NCBI GenBank assembly: GCA_022448955.1
Contig: JAKVCU010000053.1
Location: 62,001-126,000 of the forward strand
DNA from: Saprospiraceae bacterium
GTDB taxonomy: Bacteria; Bacteroidota; Bacteroidia; Chitinophagales; Saprospiraceae
Length of the DNA: 64,000 bases
Direction of reading: 5' to 3'
Under the pieces are notes generated by a model that ran no database searches, was not told where the DNA came from, and saw only the letters and a program-made list of their open reading frames with translations. A program made the position numbers and the translations under genes. This document shows, one piece after another, positions 16,190 to 48,869 of the stretch; the first letter of the stretch is position 1, and every line of letters starts with the position of its first letter.

Positions 16190-16241
16190 CCACTCTGACT
16201 GTTATTAAACTTTATTGACTTTTGTTTCATACATTTCGAAG

Positions 16242-16300: not shown

Positions 16301-16313
16301 TATCCTAGTCACT

Positions 16314-18581: not shown

Positions 18582-18714
18582 ATCTAGATATACTAGAATC
18601 AGATTGGTTTACCATTTCTACTTCAGTATATCCAATGGATTCATTAAATTAGGCTTTGAGTTATTGGGCTAACCTAGTTTTATACGCCTACTTACAACCA
18701 ACAAAACGAAAAAC

Positions 18715-20505: not shown

Positions 20506-20533
20506 ATTTATTAGACTAAGTTTTATAAAAAAG

Positions 20534-20564
20534 TAGCGCCAATCAAAACATTTGATTGGCGCTA
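20534..20564. terminator. Bidirectional intrinsic terminator
   Basis: A perfect 14-bp stem (20534-20547 with 20551-20564) around a 3-base loop, with A-rich sequence on its left and T-rich sequence on its right. It separates the convergent symporter and DUF4286 genes and can serve both. Confidence 0.85.
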
Positions 20565-20570
20565 TTGCTT

Positions 20571-20882: not shown

Positions 20883-20893
20883 TTAGTATGCTA

Positions 20894-22204: not shown

Positions 22205-22453
22205 TGTAAATGAAAATTAGGAAAAATTAAAAAATAAGTATTTTACATACCATTTAGATGAATGGTAAACTCAAAGGCAAAGGAAAGGAAAAGTTGTGAG
22301 AGATGCTATTAGAAATGATTAAAAGCTGCTACTGAGCGATTATTAGTTATTGGGGTAAGCCTTAAAAGTATAACAGTATAATGATTTATGACATATAGTT
22401 TATAGTTGATGATTTATCACTTATAAACCATCAACTACAAAGTAATAACTATT

Positions 22454-23146: not shown

Positions 23147-23516
23147 ATTACACTGTATTTTCTAGATAATATTGAACTACTAAATTTCAATCACTGATAT
23201 GGATTTTGCATGTTGTATATTGACGGGAACATTACTTTCAATAAAAAATTATTGGGAGTAAATTGGTCAAAATGATGTAGCCAAAATCCTAAGTGATTAA
23301 CGGAATTCTTTTCTGATCCTTTTTGCTCAAAACTATTCGACTTTTCTAATCCTTAAAGGAACTTAAAATGGTAAGGCTTACGGAATGAATGATCAAATGT
23401 GGTAAGTACAATACCTGAGAAGCATTAAAGGAAATCCTTACAAATGTAAGTTTTAATTTCTAAAAAAGAAAAAAATCCAGAGACTATTAAAATAACGATA
23501 GCCTCTGGAAATTGTT
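23147..23516. other. Intergenic region between DUF4290 and glmS
   Basis: I find no convincing gene in these 370 bases. They hold the glmS terminator at the right end and one minus-strand TACATTTG (23441-23448), an exact -7 type match that could serve DUF4290-murA with a long leader. No glmS ribozyme-like structure is relevant here, because this region is downstream of glmS. Confidence 0.4.
23463..23508 (-). terminator. Intrinsic terminator of glmS
   Basis: An 11-bp stem with one mismatch (23477-23487 with 23498-23508) lies 8 bases after the glmS stop. On the minus strand it is followed by a long U-rich tract (23463-23476). Confidence 0.8.
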
Positions 23517-25355
23517 TTATTCTACAGTAACTGATTTTGCAAGATTTCGAGGCTGATCAACATTGCAGTCACGCATCAAAGCGATATGGTAAGAAAGTAA
23601 TTGTAAAGGAATCACAGAAAGAAGTGGCGTGAAAGGCTCCTCTGTATCAGGAATTTCGATGGTATAATCTGCTATTTGGCTGATTACTTCATCACCCTCT
23701 GTGACCACTGCAATTACTAAGCCTTTTCTCGCTTTTACTTCTTGAATATTACTTGCAATTTTGTCGTAAGCACTTTTATTGGTGGCGATTACGATGACGG
23801 GCATTTCTTCATCGATCAAAGCAATAGGTCCGTGCTTCATTTCTGCTGCAGGATAGCCTTCTGCATGGATATAAGAAATCTCCTTCAGTTTCAATGCCCC
23901 TTCCAATGCGATAGGGAAGTTGTAACCACGGCCTAAGTAAAGTGCATTTGGCTTGTCTTTGATTTCTTGAGCGATGTACTCTATCTTTTTATTGCTTTCT
24001 AATACCTTCTCCACTTTCTTCGGGATGTTAGACATTTCGTTCAACAATTGCTGAAAGTAAGAAGTAGAGATTGTCCCGCGCTTGTGAGCTAGGCTCAGTG
24101 CCATCATGGTCAGTAAAGTCACTTGGCCAGTAAATGCTTTTGTAGAAGCAACACCAATCTCAGGACCTGCGTGGATATATGAACCAGCATCTGTAATACG
24201 TGCAATAGAAGAGCCGACTACATTAACGATACCATATATCAATGCCCCTTTTTCCTTAGCTAGTTCTAATGCTGCTAGGGTATCTGCTGTTTCACCGGAT
24301 TGAGAAATAGCGATAACAACATCATCTTCTGTAATGATTGGATTGCGATAACGTAGTTCAGAAGCATATTCTACTTCTACGGGTAGACGTGCAAGATCCT
24401 CGATCAAATACTCTGCAATTAAACCCGCATGCCATGATGTTCCGCAAGCTGCGATAATAATGCGCTTCGCTTTGGTAATACGATTAACATGCTCTTCCAA
24501 ACCACCAAGCATAATCCATCCCTCGTCTGCATTTAAACGTCCACGCATACAATCTGAAATAGTGGTAGGTTGTTCATGAATTTCTTTCAACATGAAGTAA
24601 TCATAGCCACCTTTTTCAAGCATCTCAATTTTCATATCTAGTTCGTGGATAAAAGGTGCTTGAACCTCATTATTTATAGTACGGATATCATAGCTGCCAG
24701 AACGACGAACTACGGCAATTTCTTCATCGTTTAGGTAAATCACCTTTTTGGTATGCTCTATGATAGGGGTAGCATCAGAAGCTAAGAAAAATTCATTTTC
24801 CCCAATACCAATAACTAAAGGAGATGCTTTTCTTGCAGCAACTAATTTATTTGGATCGTTTTTGTCTAATACAACAATAGCATAAGCACCGACAACTCTA
24901 GTTAGTGCAATACGTATGGCTTCTTCTAGTGGTAGATTATCTCTATTTTGTATTTCTTCTATCAAGTGAACGAGAACTTCCGTATCTGTTTCGCTATGAA
25001 ATACATGGCCTTCTTTTTCCAATGCTTTTTTGAGTAGAGCATAGTTTTCAATGATACCATTATGTACTAAAGCTAAGCGTCCATCACCTGATACATGAGG
25101 GTGAGCATTTAAATCATCAGGTGCTCCATGTGTTGCCCAGCGAGTATGTCCGATCCCTAAGGTGCCATTCTTTTTGGCTCCTTGTGCATGATTAACTAAC
25201 TCTTGAACTTTTCCTTTTTTCTTGTAAACGTTTACGTCTCCATTAAGTAAGGCAACACCTGCACTATCATAGCCCCGGTATTCTAGTCGTTTAAGGCCCT
25301 TAATGAGTAAAGGATATGCTTCCTTTTCACCGATGTAAGCCACGATTCCACACAT
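23517..25355 (-). CDS. glmS: Glutamine-fructose-6-phosphate aminotransferase (isomerizing)
   Basis: The 612-residue protein has the normal GlmS length and layout. The N-terminal class II glutaminase starts MCGIVAYIG with Cys2 as nucleophile, followed by LEYRGYDSAG and GHTRWATHG. Two SIS domains follow (about 290-425 and 460-600; AACGTSWHAG, ISQSGETADT), and the C-terminus is DQPRNLAKSVTVE as in the family. It makes glucosamine-6-phosphate from fructose-6-phosphate and glutamine for the peptidoglycan and LPS pathways, the reverse direction of the NagB encoded 8 kb away. No obvious ribozyme was seen upstream of its start. Confidence 0.97.
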   Translation of the reverse strand: MCGIVAYIGEKEAYPLLIKGLKRLEYRGYDSAGVALLNGDVNVYKKKGKVQELVNHAQGAKKNGTLGIGHTRWATHGAPDDLNAHPHVSGDGRLALVHNGIIENYALLKKALEKEGHVFHSETDTEVLVHLIEEIQNRDNLPLEEAIRIALTRVVGAYAIVVLDKNDPNKLVAARKASPLVIGIGENEFFLASDATPIIEHTKKVIYLNDEEIAVVRRSGSYDIRTINNEVQAPFIHELDMKIEMLEKGGYDYFMLKEIHEQPTTISDCMRGRLNADEGWIMLGGLEEHVNRITKAKRIIIAACGTSWHAGLIAEYLIEDLARLPVEVEYASELRYRNPIITEDDVVIAISQSGETADTLAALELAKEKGALIYGIVNVVGSSIARITDAGSYIHAGPEIGVASTKAFTGQVTLLTMMALSLAHKRGTISTSYFQQLLNEMSNIPKKVEKVLESNKKIEYIAQEIKDKPNALYLGRGYNFPIALEGALKLKEISYIHAEGYPAAEMKHGPIALIDEEMPVIVIATNKSAYDKIASNIQEVKARKGLVIAVVTEGDEVISQIADYTIEIPDTEEPFTPLLSVIPLQLLSYHIALMRDCNVDQPRNLAKSVTVE

Positions 25356-34904: not shown

Positions 34905-35570
34905 TTACTGCTGCTGTAAGAAGAGGTTTTGGCTTACTTTCTTAGAGATTGTCCATTCTTTTTGGCCATTGATAATTACTCGGAGAGATTCATCAAAGTC
35001 ATATTTTTCTAGAATTTCGACGCTGGCACCGAGCACTAAGCCTAGCTGATCAAGAAACTGAAGAAAGGCGGGAGAGTGTTCATATACACCAACGATAACT
35101 CCTTTATCTCCTTTCTTAAGCTTCGTTAGTAAAATTTGTTTACGGTAAGTAAAACGACCTTGTTCATCTGGAATGGGATCACCATGAGGATCGAACTTTG
35201 GATAAGATAAAAAGTGCTCGAGGCGTTCTACTAGTTTAGGAGAGCGTATATGTTCTAATTGCTCTGCGATTTCATGAACTTCATCCCATGAAAAGTCTAA
35301 TTTTTCAACTAGAAAAACCTCCCAGAGGCGATGCTTCCGTATAAGGCTAGTAGCAATATCATTACCTGTTTCAGTTAATGTAACGCCCTTATAACGTTCA
35401 TAATGGATAAACTCTTTTTTTTCCAACCTTTTGATCATATCTGTAACCGAAGCAGCACTAGTATTCATGGCATTTGAGATAGCATTCGTACTAGCAGCCT
35501 TACCTTTCCGTTCACAGATTTTGAAAATAGCCTTAAGGTAATTTTCTTCCGTTTGTGAAAAATCTGACAT
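34905..35570 (-). CDS. DtxR/MntR-family metal-dependent regulator
   Basis: The 221-residue protein has a winged helix (about 1-65; SQTEENYLKAIFKI, NTSAASVTDMIKRLEKKEFI), a metal-binding dimerisation domain (RKHRLWEVFLVEKLDFSWDE with EIAEQLEHI) and a C-terminal SH3/FeoA-like domain (~145-215). Relatives repress or activate iron or manganese uptake genes when the metal is bound. Whether Fe or Mn is sensed cannot be settled, and no uptake gene is adjacent. It is a single gene, convergent with the TPR gene. Confidence 0.9.
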   Translation of the reverse strand: MSDFSQTEENYLKAIFKICERKGKAASTNAISNAMNTSAASVTDMIKRLEKKEFIHYERYKGVTLTETGNDIATSLIRKHRLWEVFLVEKLDFSWDEVHEIAEQLEHIRSPKLVERLEHFLSYPKFDPHGDPIPDEQGRFTYRKQILLTKLKKGDKGVIVGVYEHSPAFLQFLDQLGLVLGASVEILEKYDFDESLRVIINGQKEWTISKKVSQNLFLQQQ

Positions 35571-35705
35571 GCGTTAAAAGTACAGAATTCTTATGATGAA
35601 GAAAAAACCTTTTTGTAAAAAGAGGAAGTGATTGCAAGGAAAAGAAATGAAGCATTCCACTTTACCATACATGTTGACGTTTATCAGTTCGTATACTGTA
35701 TTATG

Positions 35706-36401
35706 CTAAAGGAAGTTTAGACGCCCCATTAAAACGGGTTTATTCGCCCTACTGATAGGAATAACTTTCTTATCGATAACCATTGTATTTTCTTCGATAT
35801 CGACGATTTTGTCTAAATTAATGATATAGGATCGGTGAACCTTGAGAAATCGGCCATCTTTTAGCTTTTCATCAATTCCTTTGAGGGTACTATGTATAAT
35901 GAGGACCTGAGTTTCAGTTTGGACTTTTACATAGTCACCAACATTTTCAAAGTATAGGATTTCTTCGAAAGGTACTCTGACAAACCGACCATCTGCTTTG
36001 ATATAAACAGCATTGGATTCTTCTTTGTAGAGGGTAATTTGCTTATGCTTTTCAACTGCTTTATCGGTTGCACGCAAAAACTCCTTGGGACCTATTGGTT
36101 TTTTGAGGTAATCAATGGCTTCGTAGTGGTAGGCATCAAAGGCATATTCTGTTTTAGAAGTGGTAACGATAACAATGGGCATATATTTGACCTCTTCTAA
36201 GAATTCGATACCACTCAGTCCTGGCATTTCAATATCTAAAAAAACGAGGTCAATATTCGCATCTTTTTCCAAAATTTTGAGTCCTTCTTCTGCATTTTCA
36301 CATTGATAAACTAAGTCGAGGTTACTAACCTTTGAGCAGTGTTTCTCAATGGTTTTTCTGGATAAGATATCATCATCGACGGACATACAACGTAGTAGCA
36401 T
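35706..36401 (-). CDS. LytTR-type response regulator
   Basis: The 231-residue protein has a receiver domain (~3-120) with phospho-acceptor Asp56 in LVFLDIEMPG, and a LytTR DNA-binding domain (~130-231; ILYFENVGDYVKV, LKVHRSYIINLDKI). It is 18 bases downstream of the hybrid kinase on the same strand, so it is its likely output. LytTR regulators activate or repress promoters carrying direct repeats. The regulon is not visible here. Confidence 0.93.
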   Translation of the reverse strand: MLLRCMSVDDDILSRKTIEKHCSKVSNLDLVYQCENAEEGLKILEKDANIDLVFLDIEMPGLSGIEFLEEVKYMPIVIVTTSKTEYAFDAYHYEAIDYLKKPIGPKEFLRATDKAVEKHKQITLYKEESNAVYIKADGRFVRVPFEEILYFENVGDYVKVQTETQVLIIHSTLKGIDEKLKDGRFLKVHRSYIINLDKIVDIEENTMVIDKKVIPISRANKPVLMGRLNFL

Positions 36402-36419
36402 GAGTAACTTGAGGTTTTG

Positions 36420-38576
36420 TTATTTATTGATAAATGCTTGCATCTTTTTGAGTTCCTGTTTCAGGATAGGTATAAAAATGCTTAGTTCTTCCTTTACTTC
36501 TTTAAAGAGCAATTCAATAGTATTAATTTCTGTTTTTTCTTTGGCTGTTTGTTCAAGTGCAGCCATATGATCTGTAATATGTGTAAGCCCTACCATAGCG
36601 AAGGCGGGTTTCATTTTATGTGCTGCTTTTCTAATCTCTTCATATTTTTTGGAAGCGATTAAAGCTTCTAGATGGTCTACTTCAGGTAAGGTATATTCAA
36701 TAAATATACTAAACATATCGCTAGCATAGTCCAGATCGCCTTCATAACAATCCTCTAAATAGTCGAGATCGAGTTTAGCATTAAAAGAAAATATTGCTTC
36801 CATATCTTCCTGGTTTTGATTAGGGTTATTGATTTCCTCTTGATTTACATGTTTATTTAGGCATCTGAGGAGTTCTATGGGTGCGAAGGGCTTGGATAAA
36901 AAGTCATTCATACCAATAGAAAAGGCTTTATCTTTTTCTTTAGTTAGGGCAGAGGCTGTGAGTGCGATAATTGGGGTTTTTTGGTTAAGGTTGGTAGTGT
37001 TCCTTATACTAATGGTCGCTTCAAATCCATCTACTTCCGGCATTTGTATATCCATAAGGATGATATCAAATTCTTGCTTTTTCGTTGCTTCAATAGCTTC
37101 TTGACCATCATGCGCCATCACTGGGTTAATATCCCATTTTTTAAGGAGGGTATTAATATACTTACGGTTCATGATATTGTCTTCAGCGACTAAAACTCTG
37201 CAATGCTCGCCAATAAACGTAAGTTTTTTCGGTAATTGATTATTTTTAATAATAGCTTCTCTACCTGTATCTTCGTAAGGAATAGTGAAGGAGAATCTAG
37301 TACCTTTTCCAATTTCACTTTCCACCCATATTTTTCCTTTTTGCATTTCAATGAGCCTTTTCGTAATAGCTAAGCCAAGACCGGTTCCTCCATATTTTAA
37401 TTTTATTTCTTTATTTACTTGTTTGAAGTCTTGGAAGATTAAATTCTGTTTTTTCTTTGGGATGCCAATTCCTGTATCATAAACATCAAATTGGAGGGTT
37501 TTCATTTTATCTTTTGAGTCAATGACTTTGACATTTACTCCTACAACTCCTTCACTTGTAAATTTGATGGCATTGCCCACCAAGTTGAAGAGGATTTGGT
37601 TGAGCATCAAATCATCGCCAATGAGCATATTCTGGATTTGAGGATCTAATCGGGATCGTACTTCGACTGGTTTCTTTTCTACCTTTAATTGGAATGTTTT
37701 TTCTAGGGATTTCAACAGGCCTATCAGGTCAAATTCTCGAGGGGCGACTTCCATTTGGCCAGATTCTATTTTAGAAAAATCTAGAATATCATTGATCAAA
37801 CCTTTGAGCAAGTCTGCAGAGCTTCTTAGTATGGCGAGGTATTCTTTTTGTTTAGGGCTGAGTTTGGTATCAAATAAGAGGTGAGTCATGCCGATGACAG
37901 CATTGAGCGGCGTTCGGATTTCATGACTCATATTGGCCAAGAATTGTTTTTCAGCTTGCTGAGCAGACTCTGCAACTTTTCTAGCTTCGATCAAGTCATT
38001 CTGTAAATTTTTTTGAGCGGTAATATCGTAGTGTACACCTACAGAGCCAATAATATTATCATTTGTGTCATACATAGGAGCACCACTGATTAGTACCCAA
38101 ATTTTTTCGCCATTTTTCTTTTTTATTTGTAATTCGTAGACGCCAGCTTGGCCTCTTTTTCGGTTGTCATTTTGAGCGTCAATAAGTTCTCTCTGATCTT
38201 GTGTCAAGAAAACATTACCTGCATCTTTTCCAAGTAATTCATTTTCTGTGTATCCTGTCATATCACAAAACCAATCATAGGCACGAATGACTTTACCATC
38301 ATTATCGACTTCTAGTAAGCCCAGCTCCATATTTTCAATAATGCGCTTATAACGGATTTCACTTTCGACTAGTGCTTTTGATCGCTCGGCAATTTTATTC
38401 TCAAGGTCTTCGTTCAAAGCTCTTAGCTCTTCATTAGCCTTGAACAGTTCTAATGCTTTTTGTTCCAAAATAGATTCTGCCTGTTTTCTAGCATTTCTCT
38501 CGCGCTCAAGCCTCCTTTGTAGCATTGCTAGCTGTTTTTCCATTGTAACAGTAGAATTGTTTTGCATTACATTCAT
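36420..38576 (-). CDS. Soluble hybrid histidine kinase (coiled coil-PAS-HisKA-HATPase-REC-Hpt)
   Basis: The 718-residue protein has no membrane helix. Order: coiled coil (1-70), PAS (~72-190; VHYDITAQKNL at its end), HisKA with His218 (FLANMSHEIRTPLNAVIG), HATPase (~325-445; NLVGNAIKFTSEG, DTGIGIP, GGTGLGLAI), receiver (~458-580; LVAEDNIMNRK, LMDIQMPEVDGFEA) and Hpt (~620-710; AAHKMKPAFAMVG). It can therefore run a full phosphorelay. The upstream H-NOX gene is 86 bases away, a typical arrangement in which the gas-bound H-NOX protein controls a soluble kinase. The LytTR regulator follows 18 bases downstream. Confidence 0.95.
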   Translation of the reverse strand: MNVMQNNSTVTMEKQLAMLQRRLERERNARKQAESILEQKALELFKANEELRALNEDLENKIAERSKALVESEIRYKRIIENMELGLLEVDNDGKVIRAYDWFCDMTGYTENELLGKDAGNVFLTQDQRELIDAQNDNRKRGQAGVYELQIKKKNGEKIWVLISGAPMYDTNDNIIGSVGVHYDITAQKNLQNDLIEARKVAESAQQAEKQFLANMSHEIRTPLNAVIGMTHLLFDTKLSPKQKEYLAILRSSADLLKGLINDILDFSKIESGQMEVAPREFDLIGLLKSLEKTFQLKVEKKPVEVRSRLDPQIQNMLIGDDLMLNQILFNLVGNAIKFTSEGVVGVNVKVIDSKDKMKTLQFDVYDTGIGIPKKKQNLIFQDFKQVNKEIKLKYGGTGLGLAITKRLIEMQKGKIWVESEIGKGTRFSFTIPYEDTGREAIIKNNQLPKKLTFIGEHCRVLVAEDNIMNRKYINTLLKKWDINPVMAHDGQEAIEATKKQEFDIILMDIQMPEVDGFEATISIRNTTNLNQKTPIIALTASALTKEKDKAFSIGMNDFLSKPFAPIELLRCLNKHVNQEEINNPNQNQEDMEAIFSFNAKLDLDYLEDCYEGDLDYASDMFSIFIEYTLPEVDHLEALIASKKYEEIRKAAHKMKPAFAMVGLTHITDHMAALEQTAKEKTEINTIELLFKEVKEELSIFIPILKQELKKMQAFINK

Positions 38577-38662
38577 ATTCCTTGTAGTTGAATGGTCATA
38601 TGTCCATCCCTGTTGTCGTGGTTAAGTAAACTGGTAATACCATTTGGTATTGAATGATATGC

Positions 38663-39202
38663 TTATAGTTTTTTAATAATAAATTGTACTTCGCTGCCAC
38701 TGTCATTTTTGGGGTTCATGTCAATAGTACCTTTTTCGCCAAAGTATTCCATACTACTTTCGATGAGGCCCATAGCAAAGTCACCCATTTTCCTTTCGGA
38801 AAAATAATTCATTTCTAGTGTTTTCCCATCTAAAAGAGCAGTTTCAAACTTTGGAAGTTCTGCATCTGGATATAACTTGCGAACTTCAACATGTATGTAT
38901 TTCTCGATTGATTCTAAGAAATCAAAAAAGCTATCAGAGGCTTCTAAAAATTCAGGATACCTTTTCGTAAAAGATTGAAATATGTATTTTCCAAATGCAA
39001 ATAATAAATCCGAGACTGGAGCTTTAGTCCTTTGGCTCAAAGTAGTAACCAAGGAAATCATTTCGCTATAATCATAAGTTCCTATGGAGGTGTAAGATCC
39101 CCCGGAAGGTAATTCATTGGATTCGATTAAATCATCCGCCATTTCATAGCCGAATGTTTGCTCGACCATTTCGATAAATTCAGTAAAAACAATACCTTTC
39201 AT
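38663..39202 (-). CDS. Heme NO-binding (H-NOX/HNOB) sensor protein
   Basis: The 179-residue protein matches H-NOX end to end. It has MKGIVFTEF, LPSGGSYTSIGTYDY, the proximal heme ligand H104 (YIHVEVRKLYPDAELP, with the heme-bending Pro117), and the propionate-binding YxSxR as Y133-F-S135-E-R137. Offsets match the Thermoanaerobacter protein numbering +2. At the position of its oxygen-stabilising distal Tyr140 this protein has F142, so it should bind NO and not O2. It is cytoplasmic and encoded next to a soluble hybrid kinase, its likely partner. Confidence 0.93.
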   Translation of the reverse strand: MKGIVFTEFIEMVEQTFGYEMADDLIESNELPSGGSYTSIGTYDYSEMISLVTTLSQRTKAPVSDLLFAFGKYIFQSFTKRYPEFLEASDSFFDFLESIEKYIHVEVRKLYPDAELPKFETALLDGKTLEMNYFSERKMGDFAMGLIESSMEYFGEKGTIDMNPKNDSGSEVQFIIKKL

Positions 39203-39417
39203 ACTGTTGTCAAATAGTAGTTTTATAAATAATTAAGATGTAGCTCTCTTAAATGAAATGAGTGATTCTTTTTGTTTAATCAGGATTGGACGTTAGTATA
39301 AACAGCAAAGAACTATTTATAACTACAGGTATTTAACCAAATGGTAAGTGATGTTGTGTTTGAAATATAAAAATAACAATCTTTTTGCAAAGATGCCAAT
39401 GAAGAAGTCTAATCCCT

Positions 39418-40311
39418 CTAAAAACTAGCTTTTCCTATGCCAATATTCCATAGGCTAGCCCTGACAAAGGCTTTTAGATGATCCCATTCCCGCTTGAGTA
39501 AATAGGTGATCACCCATCGAGGGAAGGTGACAAGAATGAAAAATAAAGAGAATAAAACTAAGTGATACCATTTTGCCGTGCGGCGCATAAATAAAATACG
39601 ATTACGAGTAAGGTAGAAGGTCTTTAGTGCACTCATTTTACCTACAGACATGGATTCTTTGTGTAAAATTACTGCAGATGGCTCAAACATGATTTTATAT
39701 CCTAATCTTCGAATTTGAACACACCAGTCCAACTCTTCATAATACAGGAAATACAAATCGGGCATTTCGCCTATTTTTTCAACTACTTCTCTTTTTAACA
39801 TCATGGCTGCACCATGTGCATAAGGAACTTCTTTTCGCTCATCATATTGACCAAGATCCTTTTCTTTGTCACCAATAGTAAAACCGCGAGCAGTGAGGGG
39901 ATTGACTTCCGTAAAACCAGCATATTGGATGATGTCTGGATAATTGAAATATCTAATTTTAGGTGCGATTACTCCGATGTCAGGAGTTGTAAAAGCATCC
40001 AAGCAATTTTGAATTAATCCATCCTCGAATATAGTATCATTATTAACAAAAAAAAGAAAATCTCCTTTAGCGGCCTGAATGCCTAGATTATTACCACCCG
40101 CAAAGCCTCTGTTTTCTTTACTAATAAGAACGTTTACCGTGGGATAGTGTCGCTGAAATTGTTCTGTTTTATCTTCTAGCGAGCCATTGTCTACAATGAT
40201 CACTTCTATATTTGGGTAGTCATGATGAGCCAATGAGTCGAGTAATGCACAAGTGATAGATGCATCCCTAAAATTGATCGTAATGATGGAGACGAGAGCT
40301 GGATTTTTCAA
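39418..40311 (-). CDS. Family 2 glycosyltransferase
   Basis: The 297-residue enzyme has a GT2 GT-A domain (VSIITINFRDASITCALLD, VIIVDNGS, FFVNNDTIFEDG with the DxD-like NND, YEELDWCVQIRRLGY) resembling rhamnosyltransferases (WbbL type). The C-terminus (about 235-290) is hydrophobic and may anchor it in the membrane. The start is TTG at 40311; no ATG is available in frame. It begins one base after the flippase stop, so the two are coupled. It adds one sugar to a lipid-linked polysaccharide precursor; the donor is unknown. Confidence 0.88.
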   Translation of the reverse strand: MKNPALVSIITINFRDASITCALLDSLAHHDYPNIEVIIVDNGSLEDKTEQFQRHYPTVNVLISKENRGFAGGNNLGIQAAKGDFLFFVNNDTIFEDGLIQNCLDAFTTPDIGVIAPKIRYFNYPDIIQYAGFTEVNPLTARGFTIGDKEKDLGQYDERKEVPYAHGAAMMLKREVVEKIGEMPDLYFLYYEELDWCVQIRRLGYKIMFEPSAVILHKESMSVGKMSALKTFYLTRNRILFMRRTAKWYHLVLFSLFFILVTFPRWVITYLLKREWDHLKAFVRASLWNIGIGKASF

Positions 40312-40312
40312 T

Positions 40313-41641
40313 TTATTCTGATTTAGGCTTAAGTTTTATCTTCAAAATAGTGGTAACCGATTGAATATACTCGATCATCAGCCTAAAAATATTAAAATGA
40401 TTGATTTTTAGTCGTTTCGATAATAAAAATTGTCCTAAAATAATGGTAATCCATATAGCTAAAAGTGTGGCCACTGCCGCTCCTTCCAGCCCCATGATAG
40501 GTATAAGTGTAGCATTCAGGCTAATATTGAAAAGTAAACTCACTATCAACATTTTAAAGTTGAGTACAGGTTGACCTATTGCATCTAGGGTAATACCGAA
40601 TAATCGTCCCCATGGTTTAATTAAGCCAGCAAGAACTAAAAGTTTCAAAACGATTGTTGCTTCAAGATATTCTTGTCCTGCTAAAATGATTATAATGGGT
40701 TCTGCGAAGAGAAAGACAAAAATTGCAATAGGCATGCTGATTAGAAATAACAAAGCAACAGACTTTTCATATAGTTTGGACACTTCAATAAGTCCTTCTT
40801 TCTGCCTTTCTGCTATTCTAGGATAAATCACTTGCGCCAAACTATTCATGGGTACTTCCATATAATTATTTACTCTTGATGCTACATTATATAGAGATAC
40901 CGCAATAGGATTGATGAATGCACCTAGCATCATTACATCCATTCTGTTGAATAGCATGGAACTGAAGTTGGTTCCAAAAACATATTTTCCAAAATGGAAG
41001 AGCTTCCAGAAAAATATACGATTGAAGACACCGAATTGGAAGTAGGAGGTTTGATATAATAAAATGAATACTAGTGCGACTAGTGCAGCAATGGATTGAA
41101 AGATAATTAGCCTGTATAAGGCTATATTTAGCTCGAAGTACCAATAATAAAGAATACCCCCTAAAAAAAAGATACCATAAAGTACATTAGCTACAAAAAC
41201 ACCACGAAAGTCTTGTTTAGCTATCTGGATGAACTCTGTTAGTTTTAGACTTCCAAATAAAAAGGCATAAAGTATATACCAAGGAACAATTTGGGTTAGA
41301 ATGTCTGCTGACCACAAATCAGCGAGTACGAATGATAATCCCCACAAAAAAAGCGCTCCAACTAAGCCCACGAGAGTACTTAAAACAAAGGCCGTACTGA
41401 TCCACTCCTTCCTTTCCCTATCATTAGAGGCTGAGTAAAACTTTACAAAACCATTTTGTACAAACCCTATTCTAGTCATTTCTGCAAAGGAAGTTAGAGT
41501 AAGGTAAAGTACCCAAACCCCAAAATCATCCTGTGATAGTATTCTAACTAATACTAAAAAAGCCAAAAAATTGAAACCCAATTGTGCAATATTAGCGAGA
41601 AGAGAAAAACTACCCGCTTTTAACCAGCTGTCTTTACTCAT
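40313..41641 (-). CDS. Polysaccharide flippase (Wzx-like, MOP superfamily)
   Basis: The 442-residue protein has 12-14 hydrophobic helices and the MOP-family marks SLLANIAQLGFNFLAFLVLV and MLFNRMDVMMLGAFINP. It probably translocates an undecaprenyl-linked oligosaccharide across the inner membrane. It is the second such flippase in the window (the first is at 6.7-8.1 kb), which points to two separate polysaccharides. It sits 21 bases after the GT4 gene and immediately before the GT2 gene in a minus-strand cluster. Confidence 0.86.
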   Translation of the reverse strand: MSKDSWLKAGSFSLLANIAQLGFNFLAFLVLVRILSQDDFGVWVLYLTLTSFAEMTRIGFVQNGFVKFYSASNDRERKEWISTAFVLSTLVGLVGALFLWGLSFVLADLWSADILTQIVPWYILYAFLFGSLKLTEFIQIAKQDFRGVFVANVLYGIFFLGGILYYWYFELNIALYRLIIFQSIAALVALVFILLYQTSYFQFGVFNRIFFWKLFHFGKYVFGTNFSSMLFNRMDVMMLGAFINPIAVSLYNVASRVNNYMEVPMNSLAQVIYPRIAERQKEGLIEVSKLYEKSVALLFLISMPIAIFVFLFAEPIIIILAGQEYLEATIVLKLLVLAGLIKPWGRLFGITLDAIGQPVLNFKMLIVSLLFNISLNATLIPIMGLEGAAVATLLAIWITIILGQFLLSKRLKINHFNIFRLMIEYIQSVTTILKIKLKPKSE

Positions 41642-41662
41642 AATCTGATTGTTTCGAATAGG

Positions 41663-42829
41663 TTATGGTTTTTTTGAAATGAGCTTTGAATAGACTGCTG
41701 CAGTCTTTTGGGCAATAATGTCCCAAGAAAATTTTTTCATGACATAGGATTCGCCAAAATTCCCCATTCTTTTAGCTTCTTTTGGATGATCAAATAACCA
41801 ATTAATACTCTTGGCTATTTCATCTGTATTACCTTTTTCAAATAAGATCCCGTTTTCACCATTTTCAACCATCTCATTAATGCCATTGATATTCGACGCC
41901 AACACTGGTCTTCCACAAATATTTGCCTCCATTAACACAATACCTTGTGTTTCGTAAAAGGATGGCAAGACAAGTGCATAGGAACGATCAACCCATTCAA
42001 ATACTTTTTGCATACTCACAGCACCTTTCAAGATGACATTTTCTTGGAGGTTTTTTCTTTGAATGTCTTGTTCTAGAGAAGATCGATCTGGGCCATCGCC
42101 CAAAACAACTAATTTTATGTCTCTTCTTACTTTTTGCATAGCTTCCATAAGAGGAAAAATCCCCTTGATACTGCTTAAACGTCCAACAAATAGTAAAATC
42201 TTGGATTTCAAATTAATTGTGGAGGGGGTGAAATTGGGAGGATCAATACCATTATAGATAATAGAAGATTTTTTGATATGCTCAGGGTACTGTTCCTCTA
42301 ATAATCGTTGCATCTCGTTACTAACACTAATCATCGCATCAGCACGTTGAAACTGTTTAGCTTCAAACTTTTTGGTTCTTTTTTTATGCCACCGATGATC
42401 CAATGACATACAGCTATTACTATTAGACCGTGAATATTCAATATCTATTAAGCCATGAAGGGTAATGACAATAGGTATTTCACTAAACTTCCTTTCCCAG
42501 TCAAAGAGATAGCCACTCCTCCCTTGCATATGTATTACTTCGAAACTATTGGCATGCTTATTTAACCATTTTGCAGCCGCTTTATTGAATGCATATTCTT
42601 CCGCAAATAATGGTACAAAGGGAAGTTTCCTTCCAGGGAAAAAAGGGATTTTATGGATGATTCGACCATCTATCTCTTCTGTTTCCTCTTTATCTTTAAA
42701 ACTACCTCCTGATAGAATATGAACTTCATGACCAAGCTTTGTTAGCCACTTACTAATTTTCCAAACGTGTGTTTGGATTCCGCCTTTAAAGGTGCTTGGC
42801 AGTGATTTACAAACCATTAATATCTTCAT
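41663..42829 (-). CDS. Family 4 glycosyltransferase
   Basis: The 388-residue GT-B enzyme has an N-domain opening with SLPSTFKGGIQTHVWKIS and a C-domain with LFVGRLSSIKG and the EX7E signature (YETQGIVLMEANICGRPVLA). No membrane helix is obvious. It transfers sugars from nucleotide donors in the cytoplasm. Upstream lies a 207-base gap, downstream the flippase. The sugar and acceptor cannot be stated. Confidence 0.9.
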   Translation of the reverse strand: MKILMVCKSLPSTFKGGIQTHVWKISKWLTKLGHEVHILSGGSFKDKEETEEIDGRIIHKIPFFPGRKLPFVPLFAEEYAFNKAAAKWLNKHANSFEVIHMQGRSGYLFDWERKFSEIPIVITLHGLIDIEYSRSNSNSCMSLDHRWHKKRTKKFEAKQFQRADAMISVSNEMQRLLEEQYPEHIKKSSIIYNGIDPPNFTPSTINLKSKILLFVGRLSSIKGIFPLMEAMQKVRRDIKLVVLGDGPDRSSLEQDIQRKNLQENVILKGAVSMQKVFEWVDRSYALVLPSFYETQGIVLMEANICGRPVLASNINGINEMVENGENGILFEKGNTDEIAKSINWLFDHPKEAKRMGNFGESYVMKKFSWDIIAQKTAAVYSKLISKKP

Positions 42830-43036
42830 AAGAATAGTTCTTTGATATTACTAAGTGATTAGACAAAATTGCTTGTTATGTAAAATTATTGGGCAAAAAA
42901 ATAGTAGGTTGCTGGCAATAGTTCAGTTAGCACGATTTTTAGACTAGCTCGAACTTGTCAGCCTTTGGCTGAAATGATAGGGTGCCAATTTATTGGGCTT
43001 ACTACTTAATGGTATAAACACAGATCTGGAGCTTTA

Positions 43037-43156
43037 TTAAGCTTCCAAATCACTTTCTCTTTTCTTTTGATCTTTTTTGCCAGAATTAATACCCATTAAA
43101 AATCCTATCAACATAAAAACTAAAATGATATGCCAAGGCATTCCTTCTCCGAACAT
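43037..43156 (-). CDS. 39-residue single-pass membrane peptide coupled to the GT2 gene
   Basis: The short frame (MFGEGMPWHIILVFMLIGFL onward, then a basic, charged tail) has one hydrophobic segment (about 8-23) and a Lys/Arg/Glu-rich tail, which gives a typical small membrane protein. Its ATG overlaps the stop of the upstream GT2 gene by one base (TAATG), so ribosomes can reinitiate. The overlap and the clear amphipathic layout support a real gene. Such peptides often bind larger membrane enzymes; here the processive GT2 would be the candidate. Function is inferred. Confidence 0.7.
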   Translation of the reverse strand: MFGEGMPWHIILVFMLIGFLMGINSGKKDQKKRESDLEA

Positions 43157-44352
43157 TATTTTATTTTTTGAGTTTTCGTATTAAAATCAACAAATGTGTG
43201 GGGGGTATGAATGAATTTTTTGTTGGCATTGCCTACCTTCAAAAGTGCTTTAAAGGAAGAAAAAAGTGCAATAGGCAAACCAAAAAAAACCGCTTTCCAA
43301 TGTCTACGGAAGTAAAGGGAAGGTGTTGCGATTAGGAAGCTCAAAATATTGATGGCCAGTGCAGACCCCCACAAAATTGTAAAGGTGCTGCTACCAATCA
43401 GAAAGCTAACGAAGGTAAAAGTGAATAAGAGGACAGGCAGGAAAATACGAGGTGGTAGTGCCATCTGAATAGATTTATTGAAAAAGTCTACTCTTCCATC
43501 TAAAAGCAAAGCTTTAAAGCCTTTTGGCAGGTATTGATTAGCATAGTGAAACTGTGCCGCTATCCATCTACTCCTCTGTTTTGTTAGATGTGCTGGTTTT
43601 CTTACTTTTTCGTCATAGACTTGTGCATGGTGGTCATAGTCTAATTTGATACCTGCTTGTGTGAATTTTAGCTCTAGTTCTTTATCAAAACCACCTACAG
43701 CATTTACACTTTTCATGACTTTTTTGAAAAGTTTGTAATCAAAAGCCATAGCAGAACCTGCTAGCCGAACGGAAAGACCAACTAATTGATGACCTTTGCA
43801 CAATATGCGGTTGTTGATATCCTCGCTCGCTGCATCCAGGATAGCCATTGGTGTGTCATAATTTTTAGCTACTCGTCTTCCTTGTACGACGACAGAACCT
43901 TCATTAAAACGTTGGTTCATTCTTTCAAGAAAATCATTGGCCATGACATTGTCTGCGTCTAATATGACAGCCATTTCATAAGTATCAGTGAGTTGGGCGA
44001 GGGTTCTATTCAGGGCTTTTGATTTGGTGCTTTTTTTAAAGCTAACTTGAATGACTTTTATGGCTAATTTGTTCAAACTATTTAAAGTTTCTTCGCGCAA
44101 AGAATCTGCAATGACAATCACATCATATTTTTCTGATGGATAAGATTGCTTTAAGGCAGCTTCTGCTACAGAGTTAATAACAGCATCTTCCTTGTAACAA
44201 GGAATGAATACTGCTATTTTTCGAATTTTGTTTTTTATAGTAGGACGCTTTGGAGTTGGAAATAGGCTAGCGAAAGAAAAGATAAATTGATATAAAGCAG
44301 CCCAAGCTAGATATGCGAAAAACATGTAGAATATGATTGTTAGGTAGATCAT
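43156..44352 (-). CDS. Membrane-bound processive family 2 glycosyltransferase
   Basis: The 398-residue protein has an N-terminal membrane helix (~1-30), a GT2 catalytic domain (KIAVFIPCYKEDAVINSV, VILDADNVMANDF with DxD) and the processive-type QRSRW motif (TKQRSRWIAAQFHYANQ), then two to three C-terminal helices (~295-370). This layout resembles cellulose/hyaluronan-synthase-like enzymes that polymerise and extrude a glycan, though it is shorter. It heads the minus-strand polysaccharide cluster and overlaps the 39-residue peptide gene by one base. Confidence 0.87.
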   Translation of the reverse strand: MIYLTIIFYMFFAYLAWAALYQFIFSFASLFPTPKRPTIKNKIRKIAVFIPCYKEDAVINSVAEAALKQSYPSEKYDVIVIADSLREETLNSLNKLAIKVIQVSFKKSTKSKALNRTLAQLTDTYEMAVILDADNVMANDFLERMNQRFNEGSVVVQGRRVAKNYDTPMAILDAASEDINNRILCKGHQLVGLSVRLAGSAMAFDYKLFKKVMKSVNAVGGFDKELELKFTQAGIKLDYDHHAQVYDEKVRKPAHLTKQRSRWIAAQFHYANQYLPKGFKALLLDGRVDFFNKSIQMALPPRIFLPVLLFTFTFVSFLIGSSTFTILWGSALAINILSFLIATPSLYFRRHWKAVFFGLPIALFSSFKALLKVGNANKKFIHTPHTFVDFNTKTQKIK

Positions 44353-44830
44353 GATATAAACTTGTTTGCATGAATCAATTGTGGAATTATTTAAAATTAG
44401 CTTGAAAAACTGTTTATTATTGATGGATTTAGATGATTGGATAAATCGGCCAAGAGAATGGTGGGTATGTATCTTTTTTTGGTAGGGACATCAATTTATC
44501 GCTAACGAAAAGAAAGGCCGGCAAATCAAAGTTTGCCGGCCCACAATAACTAAAATACAATCATGACCTAAACTTAACATATCTTGAATTGACCTTCCAG
44601 AAAAAGGTGCCGCAACAATCCCCCAAAAAGCGTTGCGGCACGGCAATTAAACCTCTCAAAAGTCAATCATTTTTCTTATTGGGTCGCGTATGTAATACGC
44701 ATCAAACAGAACATCAGCTGGATGTCTGATTAATAAATGAGTGCTCTTTGAACATACACTTTCGTTAAAAAGTATATTGCTGTGATTGTACATATAAACC
44801 TAAACGTTCTAACAACTTGGTAGGAGGCAG
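44353..44830. other. Intergenic region upstream of the GT2 gene
   Basis: These 478 bases contain a strong hairpin (44516-44541), but I see no convincing gene on either strand. AT-rich sequence between 44353 and 44480 may carry the promoter of the polysaccharide cluster, though no exact TAnnTTTG match was found. Confidence 0.4.
44516..44541 (-). terminator. Terminator for the minus-strand 45-kb genes
   Basis: A perfect 10-bp G/C-rich stem (44516-44525 with 44532-44541, loop 6) has a U-rich tail on the minus strand. It would end transcripts coming from the response-regulator gene at 45.4 kb. Confidence 0.75.
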
Positions 44831-44992
44831 TTAAGTCATCCTTAAACTGGCTCTAAAAATTCTTCTTGTATTAATAGCAAGAGCTATAGCGAAGAAGGCT
44901 GGCAACAAAAGTACTCCAAGAATAGAGGCGAAAAATAGTAGGACGAAGGTTTGGATCGACGTATAGTTTTTCATTTCTCGGCTGATTTGCAT
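44831..44992 (-). CDS. Possible 53-residue membrane protein
   Basis: A 53-codon frame has one long hydrophobic stretch (about residues 14-40, SIQTFVLLFFASILGVLLLP) and a basic C-terminus (NTRRIFRASLRMT). This is the shape of a small membrane protein. It lies between the response-regulator gene and a minus-strand terminator, so it would be transcribed. No family is recognised and the start is arbitrary. It could be chance. Confidence 0.4.
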   Translation of the reverse strand: MQISREMKNYTSIQTFVLLFFASILGVLLLPAFFAIALAINTRRIFRASLRMT

Positions 44993-45058
44993 AGCGGATA
45001 ATTCTTTTGTTATCCATTATTTTTTCATAAAATTTTAAGCTTTTAGGTTGGCACTCTT

Positions 45059-45436
45059 TTATGGAACCTGGGAGACAGCTAATAAACTTTTTATTTTTAG
45101 GTCTAATATCTGGGGACGGAATGGCTTTAGTATATAATCATTCGCGCCAGATTGAAGACAAGCAATTTTATTATCACTGTTTTTTTCCCCCGAAAGTATT
45201 ATTAAGGGGATCGTACTGGATATAGTAGATCTAAAATATTTAGTGAATTCTAAACCATCCATTATTGGCATTTGGAGGTCAGCTATCACTAGTTGGGGAA
45301 CGATTCCTTTTTTTAACCATTCTATAGCATCTTTTCCATTTTCAAGACTAACAACATCAAAGGTGTTTTTAAAGAGGTGCGATAAAAACTTTCTCATGAT
45401 TTTGCTATCTTCTATAATCAATATTTTTTTTGCCAT
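45059..45436 (-). CDS. Single-domain response regulator (CheY-like)
   Basis: The 125-residue protein is one receiver domain: IIEDSKIMRKFL with the acidic pair, phospho-acceptor in IADLQMPIMDGLEF (Asp near 53), Ser/Thr in IILSGEKN and the conserved Lys in ILKPFRPQ. No output domain is attached, so it acts by protein contact or as a phosphate carrier. No kinase is adjacent; the nearest kinase is the H-NOX-linked one 7 kb away. A TATATTTG promoter candidate precedes it. Confidence 0.92.
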   Translation of the reverse strand: MAKKILIIEDSKIMRKFLSHLFKNTFDVVSLENGKDAIEWLKKGIVPQLVIADLQMPIMDGLEFTKYFRSTISSTIPLIILSGEKNSDNKIACLQSGANDYILKPFRPQILDLKIKSLLAVSQVP

Positions 45437-45870
45437 GATTTCTAAATTTGGTCATTAGTGTATTCATTAATTATTACCTTAACAAATATAGTTTGGAAAA
45501 ATACTAGGAGGGATATTCTTCGATTTCTGGTATCTATATTACAAGAAACGGTATATTTTTTACCGTTTTTGGAAAAAGCGAAGAGGAGATGGAAAATTGA
45601 TTTAAACCTTATGCTGACTTAAGGAATAAATCCAGGGCTAGAATAGGAAGAGTCCTTTGTTATTGAAGATGAGCATGAAAATTGGTCCGTTAAAAAAGTC
45701 TCAGCTGGCGAAACTATATAAGAAGAGAAAATAGAAATAAGATGTAATATTAACAGCTCTATTTCAATATATTGGAATACAAATTGTTGACTATAGTCTT
45801 AGGAGTTTTTTTCTTTCTATTATCATAAAGTTAGTGAAATCGTTATTTTTGATTTAAAATTTATATTGAT
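45437..45870. other. Divergent intergenic region (CheY-like / nitroreductase)
   Basis: These 434 bases hold the minus-strand promoter candidate and, close to the nitroreductase start, TATTTTTG (45844-45851), which could serve that gene. A basic 21-codon frame at 45669-45734 (KIGPLKKSQLAKLYKK) is visible but too short to support. No other structure stands out. Confidence 0.4.
45483..45490 (-). promoter_or_regulatory. Candidate -7 element for the CheY-like gene
   Basis: On the minus strand the sequence reads TATATTTG, an exact TAnnTTTG match, 46 bases upstream of the start. No clear -33 TTG. Confidence 0.45.
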
Positions 45871-46446
45871 ATGGATATCCGAGCTTTTAATCAATTAATT
45901 AAGAGCAGGCGATCAATTTTCCCACAAACATATACTGATCAGCCCATAGCTCAAGACATTATTGAGCAAATTCTTGAAAATGCCAACTGGGCACCTAATC
46001 ATAAAAAGACAGAGCCTTGGCGATTTAAAGTGTTTAGAGGAGCAGCCTTAGAACGACTAAGCGATTACTTGGGAGAATGGTACATGGCCAACACAGCCGA
46101 AGAAAAATTTTCTGAAAAGAAGTTAGAAAAAACTAAGAAAAAACCAATGCAGTCAGCTTGTGTGATAGCTATTTGTATGCAGCGTGACCCTAAAGAAAGT
46201 TTACCTGAATGGGAAGAAATTGCAGCAGTTGCCTGTGCAGTTCAAAATATGTGGTTGAGCTGTACGGCTTACAATATTGGCTGTTACTGGAGCTCTCCAA
46301 GAAGTATCATTGAAGCAAAGGACTTCTTAGAATTAGGGGAAGGAGAGCAGTGTTTTGGACTTTTTTATATGGGATATCATAAGATGCCCCTAATAGAAAT
46401 TCAAAGAGGTGATATAAATGATAAAGTGAGTTGGATAGATGAATAG
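45871..46446 (+). CDS. Nitroreductase-family FMN oxidoreductase
   Basis: The 191-residue protein has the nitroreductase fold marks: IKSRRSIFPQTYTDQPI (FMN phosphate contacts), ANWAPNHKKTEPWRF and a C-terminal GEGEQCFGLFYMGYHK. It uses NAD(P)H to reduce nitro-compounds, quinones or flavins; the native substrate is unknown. The closest known groups are YdjA-like short nitroreductases. It is transcribed alone and diverges from the CheY-like gene. Confidence 0.88.
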   Translation: MDIRAFNQLIKSRRSIFPQTYTDQPIAQDIIEQILENANWAPNHKKTEPWRFKVFRGAALERLSDYLGEWYMANTAEEKFSEKKLEKTKKKPMQSACVIAICMQRDPKESLPEWEEIAAVACAVQNMWLSCTAYNIGCYWSSPRSIIEAKDFLELGEGEQCFGLFYMGYHKMPLIEIQRGDINDKVSWIDE

Positions 46447-46706: not shown

Positions 46707-48869
46707 ATGGGTCAGACAATTACACTTGCAATTCCTGTGTTTGGAGTGTTAGCCTTGTTGTACACATTTTGGCGCTCATCATGGGTATCTAAGCAAGAAG
46801 TAGGTACAGATCGCATGGCACGTATTGCAGAGAATATCGCAGATGGTGCGATGGCATTTTTGAAAGCAGAATATAGAGTGCTTTCTATTTTCGTATTAGC
46901 AGTGGCAATCCTTCTAGCAGTAACTGCGAATGCTGAGAATTCTTCTTGGCTTATCGCTGTTTCCTTCGTTTTAGGTGCAATTTGTTCTGCTTTAGCAGGA
47001 TTTATCGGAATGCGTGTTGCAACGAAAGCGAACGTTAGAACAACCAATGCAGCTAGAACAAGTCTTGGAAAAGCATTAGAAGTGGCTTTTGCAGGTGGTG
47101 CAGTAATGGGTCTTGGTGTTGTAGGTCTTGGTGTTCTTGGCCTTGGCGTGTTGTTTATCACTTATTCAAATATGGGATGGGATATTAATAAAGTAATTAC
47201 TGTAATTACTGGTTTCTCATTTGGTGCTTCTTCTATCGCATTATTCGCTCGTGTAGGTGGTGGTATTTATACCAAAGCTGCTGATGTAGGTGCAGATTTG
47301 GTAGGAAAAGTAGAAGCTGGTATCCCTGAAGATCACCCGTTAAATCCTGCAACTATCGCAGATAACGTAGGTGATAATGTGGGTGATGTAGCTGGTATGG
47401 GTGCTGACCTGTTCGAATCATATGTAGGTTCTATCATTGGTACAATGGTATTAGGAGCAGCGTTTATTGGTGTTTCAACTGGTTTTGAAGCTACCAATGA
47501 ATATGGTGGATTGAATGCAGTATTATTACCACTAGTACTAGCAGGTGTTGGTATCGTAACTTCTATTATAGGTACTTTTTTCGTAAAAGTTAAAGAAGGT
47601 GGTGATCCTCAAAAAGCATTGAACCTCGGAGAATTCTTATCTGCTGGGTTAATGTTGGCTGCTACTTGGTTTATTGTAACAACAATTCTTCCTGCTGAAT
47701 GGGTATTTGAAGAAAAAACTTATTCCGCAAACGGCGTTTTCTTTGCTGTACTATTCGGTTTGGCTTCTGGTTTATTAATCGGTTTGGTTACTGAATTTTA
47801 CACGGGTACTGGTACAAAGCCAGTTCAAGGTATTGTTGATCAGTCATTAACCGGTTCTGCAACAAACATCATCGCTGGTTTGAGTGTAGGTATGCAATCA
47901 ACTGCTATTCCAATTTTAATCTTAGCGGCAGCTATCATTGGCGCTCACCATTTCGCTGGTCTTTATGGTATAGCGATTGCAGCAGTAGGTATGCTTTCAA
48001 ATACAGGTATTCAGTTAGCAGTAGATGCTTACGGTCCTGTTTCTGATAACGCAGGTGGTATTGCTGAGATGGGAGACTTGCCAAAAGAAGTGCGTCAGCG
48101 TACAGATAAATTGGATGCAGTAGGTAACACTACAGCTGCAATTGGTAAAGGTTTTGCGATTGGTTCTGCTGCTTTAACTGCATTGGCTCTTTTCGCTGCC
48201 TTCATGACTACAGCAAAAATCAACTCTATCGATATTTCTAAGCCACTCGTGATGGCTGGCCTATTATTAGGTGGTATGTTGCCATTTTTGTTCTCTGCAT
48301 TATCAATGAGTGCAGTAGGGCGTGCAGCAATGGATATGATCAAAGAGGTTCGTCGTCAATTCGCTGAAATTCCTGAATTGAAAGCGGCATTAAATGTAAT
48401 GCGTAAAAATGGCGATACAGAATACGAAGATTGGTCTGATGCAGATAAGAAAACTTTCGATGCTGCTGACGGTAAAGCTGAATATAGCAAGTGTGTAGAA
48501 ATTTCTACAGCAGCTTCCATCCGTGAGATGATTCTTCCTGGTTTAATTGCAGTAATTAGCCCAGTGGTTGTAGGCTTTTTGGGCGGTGCTGAAATGCTTG
48601 GTGGTTTGCTTGCAGGTGTGACTGTTTGTGGCGTATTGATGGCGATTTTCCAATCAAACGCAGGTGGTGCATGGGATAACGCTAAAAAGATGTTTGAAGA
48701 AGGAGTTAGCATACAAGGTGAGACTTACTACAAAAAATCTGAGCCACATAAGGCAGCAGTTGTAGGTGACACAGTTGGTGATCCGTTTAAAGATACTTCA
48801 GGACCATCATTAAACATCTTATTAAAATTGATGTCAGTGGTAGCACTTGTGATTGCTCCACTATTGTAA
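46707..48869 (+). CDS. hppA: Membrane-bound ion-pumping pyrophosphatase, K+-dependent type
   Basis: The 720-residue protein has ~16 membrane helices and the M-PPase signature [20 protein letters not shown], with [19 protein letters not shown] binding Mg-pyrophosphate. It couples PPi hydrolysis to H+ or Na+ export across the inner membrane. In the motif [10 protein letters not shown] the diagnostic residue is Ala477 (K+-independent pumps have Lys there), so it should need K+; all known Na+-pumping forms belong to that K+-dependent class. Which ion is moved cannot be decided from this. A good promoter and a strong terminator flank it, so it is a single-gene unit. Confidence 0.95.

Follow-up and report, generated by a model that had tools for sequence, protein, structure and literature searches.

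What does a bacterium of the family Saprospiraceae gain from a heme-based gas sensor that is encoded together with a soluble kinase and a DNA-binding regulator? This question is raised by a 64,000-nucleotide stretch of contig JAKVCU010000053.1 (positions 62,001 to 126,000; assembly GCA_022448955.1), hereafter the window, to which all coordinates refer. On its minus strand, an H-NOX gene is followed by the gene of a hybrid histidine kinase and then by that of a receiver-LytTR response regulator. We propose, with a probability of roughly 70%, that this locus encodes a nitric oxide (NO)-responsive phosphorelay in which the H-NOX protein docks on the kinase via an N-terminal coil and the receiver-LytTR regulator is the output.

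An H-NOX, hybrid kinase and LytTR cassette

The predicted heme-NO sensor (179 aa, 38663..39202), assigned by profile, residues and fold, matches HNOB (PF07700) with 143.2 bits against a cut-off of 25.5 (E-value 8.8e-42). After a gap of 86 bp follows the kinase (718 aa, 36420..38576), in which a charged coil (aa 17-69, 38370..38528), recognized with sequence models and proposed here as an H-NOX docking element, precedes a PAS domain (aa 75-187, 38016..38354; PAS_9, 2.1e-19), a HisKA domain (37758..37952; 3.9e-23), a HATPase_c domain (37272..37619; 1.7e-27), a receiver (36864..37196; Response_reg, 2.1e-26) and an Hpt domain (36489..36719; 1.6e-7). The phospho-acceptor H218 of HisKA, D509 of the receiver and H653 of Hpt, read directly from the sequence, are intact. 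Another 18 bp further on, the regulator (231 aa, 35706..36401), assigned by Pfam, tree and residue reading, combines a receiver (Response_reg, 1e-17), in which the phospho-accepting D56 was likewise read directly, with a LytTR DNA-binding domain (aa 139-226, 35724..35987; 4.3e-20). None of the three proteins contains a transmembrane-like stretch, because the best 19-residue hydropathy mean among them is only 1.2. Open reading frame (ORF) coordinates, strand and Pfam all agree with the cassette that a sequence-only reading had placed here, and the same gene order recurs in relatives.

The residues of the heme pocket point to an NO-type sensor. The window H-NOX carries H104, P117, the motif YFSER (Y133-F-S135-E-R137) and F142, and has zero cysteines; the proximal His, YxSxR, Pro117 and the Phe in place of the distal Tyr named by the sequence-only reading are all present. 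Across the 122 H-NOX proteins introduced below, His104 is found in 122 and Pro117 in 121, and a Tyr at position 142 in none. H-NOX proteins that lack the distal Tyr are taken to be NO-selective. A single-sequence structure model of the window protein, with a predicted local distance difference test score of 72.1, retrieved the Kordia algicida H-NOX 6bde as best Foldseek match (3.2e-16, 45% identity), followed by 6bdd and then the Shewanella woodyi H-NOX 6ocv (44%). The absence of the distal Tyr is also equated with NO selectivity in a published account (PMC8738867).

In the proposed mechanism, of which we infer NO selectivity, docking, the sign of control and phosphate flow, the ferrous H-NOX would bind NO and would sit on the charged coil of the kinase through its helices A-C and F. 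Without NO, the kinase would autophosphorylate at H218, and the phosphate would pass to D509 of its own receiver, from there to H653 of its own Hpt domain and finally to Asp56 of the receiver-LytTR protein, which would change transcription. Sequence itself shows which components are present and that their catalytic residues are intact; it likewise shows that the cassette recurs, that most of its regulators share a clade and that the coil is associated with H-NOX. Inhibition of kinases by NO-bound H-NOX has been described for other systems (PMC8738867; PMC8846402).

The recurrence of the cassette was assessed in 150 sampled genomes of the family and 296 of the class, of which 61 and 60, respectively, contain H-NOX. 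Neighbourhoods were read for 122 H-NOX genes, the window included and fragments dropped (genomes, contigs and loci are denoted here by G, C and L numbers); G108:C483, G110:C178, G195:C79, G339:C18, both G356:C2 pieces and G202:C97 were left out, being fragments, one broken gene and one gene below the cut-off. Of the 122 genes, 105 have a kinase gene no more than 400 bp away, and in 46 cases a kinase is accompanied by a LytTR gene on the same strand within 8 kb. After removal of L080, whose LytTR protein lacks a receiver, 45 of the 122 H-NOX genes head a kinase/receiver-LytTR unit; they represent 44 loci, as both H-NOX of L040 use one regulator. In nine relatives (L067, L084, L088, L090, L102, L104, L138, L141, L143) the kinase is devoid of receiver and Hpt, and both are encoded by neighbouring genes ahead of the LytTR regulator. 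Their retention as separate genes fits a kinase-receiver-Hpt-LytTR relay.

Several unusual arrangements were seen during this survey. In L040 (3875-10425), an H-NOX, a coil kinase, a second H-NOX and a kinase with an HNOBA N-terminus stand in tandem ahead of the single LytTR regulator. The downstream receivers of L092 and L095 (two tested) carry a SpoIIE phosphatase domain, and the 450-residue upstream regulator of L096 (one tested) is of the NtrC type associated with sigma-54. Two apparent gene fusions were discarded: the single ORF joining kinase and LytTR in L065 crosses an assembly gap (X run), and the H-NOX start joined to Hpt before the LytTR regulator in L197 (3671-4420) covers only Pfam model positions 1-86, reflects a deletion or misassembly, and was not used.

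The window genome encodes one H-NOX, 22 LytTR proteins and three FIST proteins. Of 74 LytTR proteins placed in a tree, 45 are labelled as cassette rows, L080 included; 40 of these 45 fall into one clade together with five more LytTR proteins from near H-NOX (support 82/80, moderate), and this clade contains none of the other 21 LytTR proteins encoded in the window genome. The recurring cassette and the regulator clade thus bear out the view of the LytTR regulator as a dedicated output. A yes/no test for the presence of regulator orthologs by profile was abandoned as uninformative because paralogs match in 149 of 150 genomes at 1e-40. In L185, L186 and L187, a coil kinase and a LytTR regulator occur with no adjoining H-NOX, which is encoded elsewhere in the genome; in L187, a FIST gene and a kinase gene follow the LytTR gene.

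The N-terminal coil and two H-NOX lineages

The first ~50 residues of the window kinase form a charged helix or coil. Alignment of 29 N-terminal segments taken from Bacteroidota LytTR cassettes gave a model of this element, A1, whose sole match in the window genome is the window kinase. At 40 bits or more, H-NOX is no further than 600 bp away for 48 of 52 matches in the family sample and for 26 of 28 in the class sample, the window kinase being counted in both samples and A1 having been built partly from these loci. The remaining family matches come from three genomes with H-NOX elsewhere and one without, the remaining class matches from one of each kind. Below 40 bits, only 2 of 5 (family) and 1 of 25 (class) matches adjoin H-NOX.

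A fairer test is provided by 88 further loci, comprising 8 of the 19 plasmid matches of the window H-NOX and 80 genome-scan loci. The unchanged A1 detected the coil at the start of the H-NOX-adjoining ORF in 81 of these 88 loci, compared with a background of 14 of 1286 other ORFs of at least 150 aa; the loci cannot be counted as independent, since many come from Paenibacillus and three from Vibrio are nearly identical, and the genome-scan pattern IH[VKP]EV[KR][KR]LY already holds coil-type H-NOX residues. In L211, which is among the 81, the match is a 71-residue ORF in a different frame from the annotated GGDEF gene, which is itself coil-less. As to the misses, L245, L257 and L290 do carry the coil, but on a kinase that fell outside the adjacency rule; L249 gave only a faint match (E 0.084), L274 and L280 gave none with A1, and for L287 the reading frame of the coil is broken in the equivalent genome. 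The 14 other ORFs include the three kinases of L245, L257 and L290 and one ORF of L242; the remaining ten align chiefly with the latter half of A1. The L242 ORF (4241-5170) encodes an HD-domain protein with an N-terminal coil and lies 1.8 kb away from H-NOX, on the other strand. An apparent H-NOX-kinase fusion in L245 was rejected, because for its first ~220 residues the ORF reads through H-NOX in a different frame, and the true kinase begins only at the coil.

The coil is carried by HisKA hybrids, by HisKA_3 and other kinases, by five GGDEF-EAL proteins (L207, L250, L268, L273, L279; four of the five matches are weak, with E 6e-5 to 6e-4) and by one HD-domain protein. Among 157 coils, four positions are nearly invariant, R8 (157), R13 (153), E17 (156) and E21 (151), corresponding to R25, R30, E34 and E38 of the window kinase. 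Adjacency and coil together agree with the earlier assignment of the hybrid kinase as the H-NOX partner. A search for solved structures containing the coil gave three matches at E<=1, the best being heme oxygenase (5e-4 over 36 positions), which was taken as a chance helix match.

H-NOX binding was reportedly assigned to the N-terminal domain of the kinase in a 2017 Shewanella paper, in which case the coil proposal builds on earlier work. No literature title on such a coil of bacterial H-NOX partners was found, and neither the coil mark nor the split between coil and HNOBA appears in the passages of the H-NOX signalling literature examined. The S-helix coils described previously (PMC1592074) sit between signalling domains, in contrast to the N-terminal position of the coil considered here.

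Bacteroidota kinases without the coil mostly begin with an HNOBA N-terminus; Pfam HNOBA was found in 7 of 7 tested, compared with neither of two coil kinases. PF07701 (HNOBA) has no match in the window kinase, and the single match in the window genome is partial and away from it. When the partners of 210 H-NOX were typed by their N-termini, 157 had the coil, 39 HNOBA, 14 neither and none both; the typing is partly circular because the coil and HNOBA models were each rebuilt from the same neighbours. The occurrence of the coil beside H-NOX, together with this separation from HNOBA partners, favours direct docking between H-NOX and kinase in the window. A quick tree was computed for 100 H-NOX, sampled randomly from those with a typed partner and without the 14 of neither type; on it the partner label switches only once, at a branch with a Shimodaira-Hasegawa-like approximate likelihood ratio test (SH-aLRT) support of 100.

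Candidate contact residues were compared in 112 Bacteroidota H-NOX found by hidden Markov model that have a typed partner (73 coil, 39 HNOBA). Position 106 is Glu in 71 of the 73 coil-type proteins versus Arg in 36 of the 39 HNOBA-type proteins; position 109 is Lys in 73/73 versus mostly Leu or Asn; position 47 is Glu in 63/73 versus mostly Ile, Leu or Val; and position 14 is Glu in 68/73 of the coil type. In the H-NOX model, these positions fall in helices F, C and A. For H-NOX of Shewanella and Vibrio, hydrogen-deuterium exchange mass spectrometry mapped the contact with the kinase to helices A-C and F (PMC7108781). Direct coupling analysis of 157 H-NOX/coil pairs (effective number 121) gave H-NOX D23 and coil R4, that is, R21 of the kinase, as the top pair. 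No clean charge-swap pair was found between H-NOX and coil; D23/R4 is oppositely charged in 131 of 157 pairs, without a swap. D23 is not diagnostic of the subfamily, with a Glu in 19 of 39 HNOBA-type proteins. LytTR outputs occur in both lineages (39/73 coil type, 6/39 HNOBA type).

We lean, if only slightly, towards regarding the coil as a portable H-NOX docking module, the stripe of two Arg and two Glu of which would read helices A-C and F, so that any carrier, be it a hybrid or plain kinase, a GGDEF-EAL enzyme or an HD-domain protein, and even an unlinked one, would be an H-NOX client. Under this proposal there would be two H-NOX lineages with separate docking and exchangeable outputs, one read by coils and the other by HNOBA domains akin to soluble guanylate cyclase, and the window would represent the coil-type line wired to a LytTR switch.

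Alternative readings and candidate targets

That the H-NOX senses O2 or the redox state instead of NO appears highly improbable. Some H-NOX do bind O2, and that of Vibrio cholerae answers oxidation via zinc-bound cysteines (PMC7108781), but the window protein is cysteine-free and has a Phe at the position at which none of the 122 proteins has a Tyr, and its closest solved relatives are the K. algicida and S. woodyi H-NOX. An unlikely, though less remote, alternative is that the LytTR regulator is a hub of several kinases on which H-NOX exerts only a modulating influence, its constant partner perhaps being NosP (FIST) kinases or the neighbouring DtxR-type repressor. The latter, which carries a FeoA domain, is encoded downstream on the same strand (34905..35570), and a similar gene adjoins the regulator ortholog in L062, L188 and L189. 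The two last-named loci, from two genomes of one genus in neither of which H-NOX was found, contain the ortholog as an orphan with no adjoining kinase. The operons of L067 and L138 encode, in order, a receiver, H-NOX, a kinase, a Pfam-confirmed FIST protein of the NosP type, a second kinase, Hpt and the LytTR regulator, so that FIST protein and second kinase share operon, Hpt and regulator with H-NOX; L104 and L143 resemble them by similarity alone, their proteins having seeded the FIST model. The FIST gene and kinase behind the LytTR gene of L187 and the three FIST genes of the window genome point in the same direction. Against a hub stand the absence of FIST from the ten scanned window genes around the cassette, the kinase's own Hpt domain, the distance of only 18 bp to the regulator gene and the single clade of 40 of the 45 cassette regulators.

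The NO-responsive phosphorelay is the preferred reading; several observations weigh against it. Close orthologs of the regulator (322-335 bits) occur in four genomes in which H-NOX was not found (G018, G125, G028, G132); in L190 and L191 the preceding gene encodes a coil-less hybrid kinase. The regulator is therefore able to respond to other inputs as well. Five of the 45 cassette rows (L080, L109, L118, L121, L122) lie outside the main clade, indicating repeated recruitment of LytTR regulators by H-NOX kinases, and in L080 the kinase lacks Hpt and the LytTR protein lacks a receiver. The coil also occurs, in part with weak matches, on the GGDEF-EAL, HD and HisKA_3 proteins mentioned above, and it could be inherited with the kinase instead of being kept for docking; the covariation between H-NOX and coil exceeds 12 random-pairing nulls, which do not remove shared ancestry. 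Finally, expectation maximization on 31 cassette stretches upstream of H-NOX, with four controls per width, yielded no convincing autoregulatory or promoter motif. The consensus is AT-rich, and the scores were 37.5 at width 10 (controls 30.8-34.2), within the controls at width 14, and modestly above them at widths 22 (82.8 versus 69.3-76.0) and 32 (113.6 versus 97.5-107.6).

Whether the regulator acts on the neighbouring polysaccharide cluster, as the sequence-only reading had suggested by invoking NO control of surface glycans, is doubtful, although somewhat less so than the hub. The cluster comprises four upstream genes on the minus strand (GT2, flippase, GT4 and GT2; 39418..44352), assigned by Pfam and gene order as candidate members only, and a glycosyltransferase gene lies 215 bp from H-NOX. 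Within the same genus (L062), H-NOX is likewise preceded by genes in the order GT2b/GT4/flippase, with 67-72% identity, and in a second genus (L040) three of the four genes have retained their order at 39-49% identity. Nonulosonate-type genes lie directly upstream of H-NOX in L066 and L082, which are LytTR loci, as well as in L078 (four genes in each of the three) and, with one gene, in L058; in L078 and L058, the sequence stretch retrieved showed no LytTR gene. L084 has a UDP-sugar dehydrogenase and a GT2. Counted by family, 55 upstream genes include six GT2, three GT1, three flippases, two NeuB, two DegT and two cytidylyltransferases, and 66 background genes, from loci picked for regulator orthologs or weak coil matches and thus not random, include two GT2, two GT1 and two flippases. 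Precedent exists in Vibrio fischeri, in which HnoX/HahK controls the syp polysaccharide locus (PMC12369376). However, the genes running upstream on the same strand include glycan genes at 6 of 45 LytTR loci and at 4 of the 76 H-NOX loci without LytTR, which is not a significant difference (Fisher p=0.17); the panel used for this search had been assembled from these same genes, and no binding motif was found. Control of the window cluster is therefore possible but weakly supported.

As for the wider surroundings, the window encodes a 1229-aa protein with SprB repeats and a type 9 secretion sorting tail (24-3713), amino-sugar genes (14252-25355: a glucosamine isomerase/PIG-L fusion, GH20, a sodium symporter and a SIS/glutamine amidotransferase protein) and a membrane H+-pyrophosphatase of 720 aa (46707-48869). 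No Cu-type nitrite reductase (TIGR02376) was found in the genome, other NO sources not having been searched.

Relation to known H-NOX pathways

Pathways that lead from H-NOX via a kinase to regulators, including DNA-binding outputs, are already known (PMC8738867; PMC12369376). The sequence-only reading had set the LytTR output against the more usual enzymes of cyclic diguanylate (c-di-GMP) metabolism. The predicted output is indeed a DNA-binding regulator, and no c-di-GMP domain (GGDEF, EAL, HD-GYP) was present among the ten Pfam-scanned genes at 34905-46446; however, DNA-binding outputs are less unusual than was implied, since the Shewanella oneidensis pathway includes the transcription factor HnoC (PMC8738867) and V. 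fischeri HahK acts via Hpt proteins on the DNA-binding SypG (PMC12369376). A LytTR output in a recurring H-NOX cassette was not found described in excerpts of the literature that mentions both H-NOX and LytTR; in those of PMC6769237, the sole LytTR mention concerns AgrA.

The element that seems to be new here is the coil, which occurs mainly on proteins whose genes adjoin H-NOX and seems to mark the partners of this sensor. HnoX is stated to inhibit HahK by an unknown mechanism (PMC12369376), and no high-resolution structure of H-NOX with a partner is said to exist (PMC8738867). A short sequence mark of the partner, together with candidate residues on both sides, makes the control of partners by H-NOX directly testable, and it would allow H-NOX clients to be predicted from sequence. 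The operons shared by H-NOX and NosP would join two NO sensors on a single regulator.

LytTR regulators usually partner a membrane kinase, and in several LytTR loci of the window genome the preceding gene, inspected by eye, resembles one. The window shares the receiver-LytTR regulator with such LytS/LytR-type systems, whereas the neighbour of its regulator is a soluble HisKA hybrid and not a LytS-type membrane kinase. Pairs of H-NOX and HNOBA kinase, which resemble soluble guanylate cyclase, likewise have the H-NOX gene followed by the kinase gene, with a LytTR regulator in 6 of 39 cases, but their kinases begin with HNOBA (PF07701), which the window kinase lacks. In S. oneidensis (H-NOX/HnoK/HnoB/HnoD/HnoC; PMC8738867), H-NOX and a neighbouring kinase are also present; there, several regulators, one of them a transcription factor, are involved, and the main output is a c-di-GMP phosphodiesterase, unlike in the scanned part of the window. 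Vibrio harveyi H-NOX/HqsK-LuxU is similar in that a cytosolic hybrid kinase under H-NOX works in a phosphorelay, which in that case feeds quorum sensing via LuxU instead of a LytTR cassette (PMC6769237). The V. fischeri pathway HnoX-HahK-SypF/LuxU-SypG also runs from H-NOX and a receiver-bearing kinase through Hpt to a DNA-binding regulator; there, H-NOX inhibits the kinase, the regulator acts on a polysaccharide locus, and Hpt and regulator are SypF/LuxU and SypG (PMC12369376), whereas in the window Hpt is part of the kinase and the LytTR regulator belongs to the same cassette. Work on H-NOX signalling has concentrated on c-di-GMP and quorum sensing, to which the LytTR cassette adds a gene switch as a recurring output.

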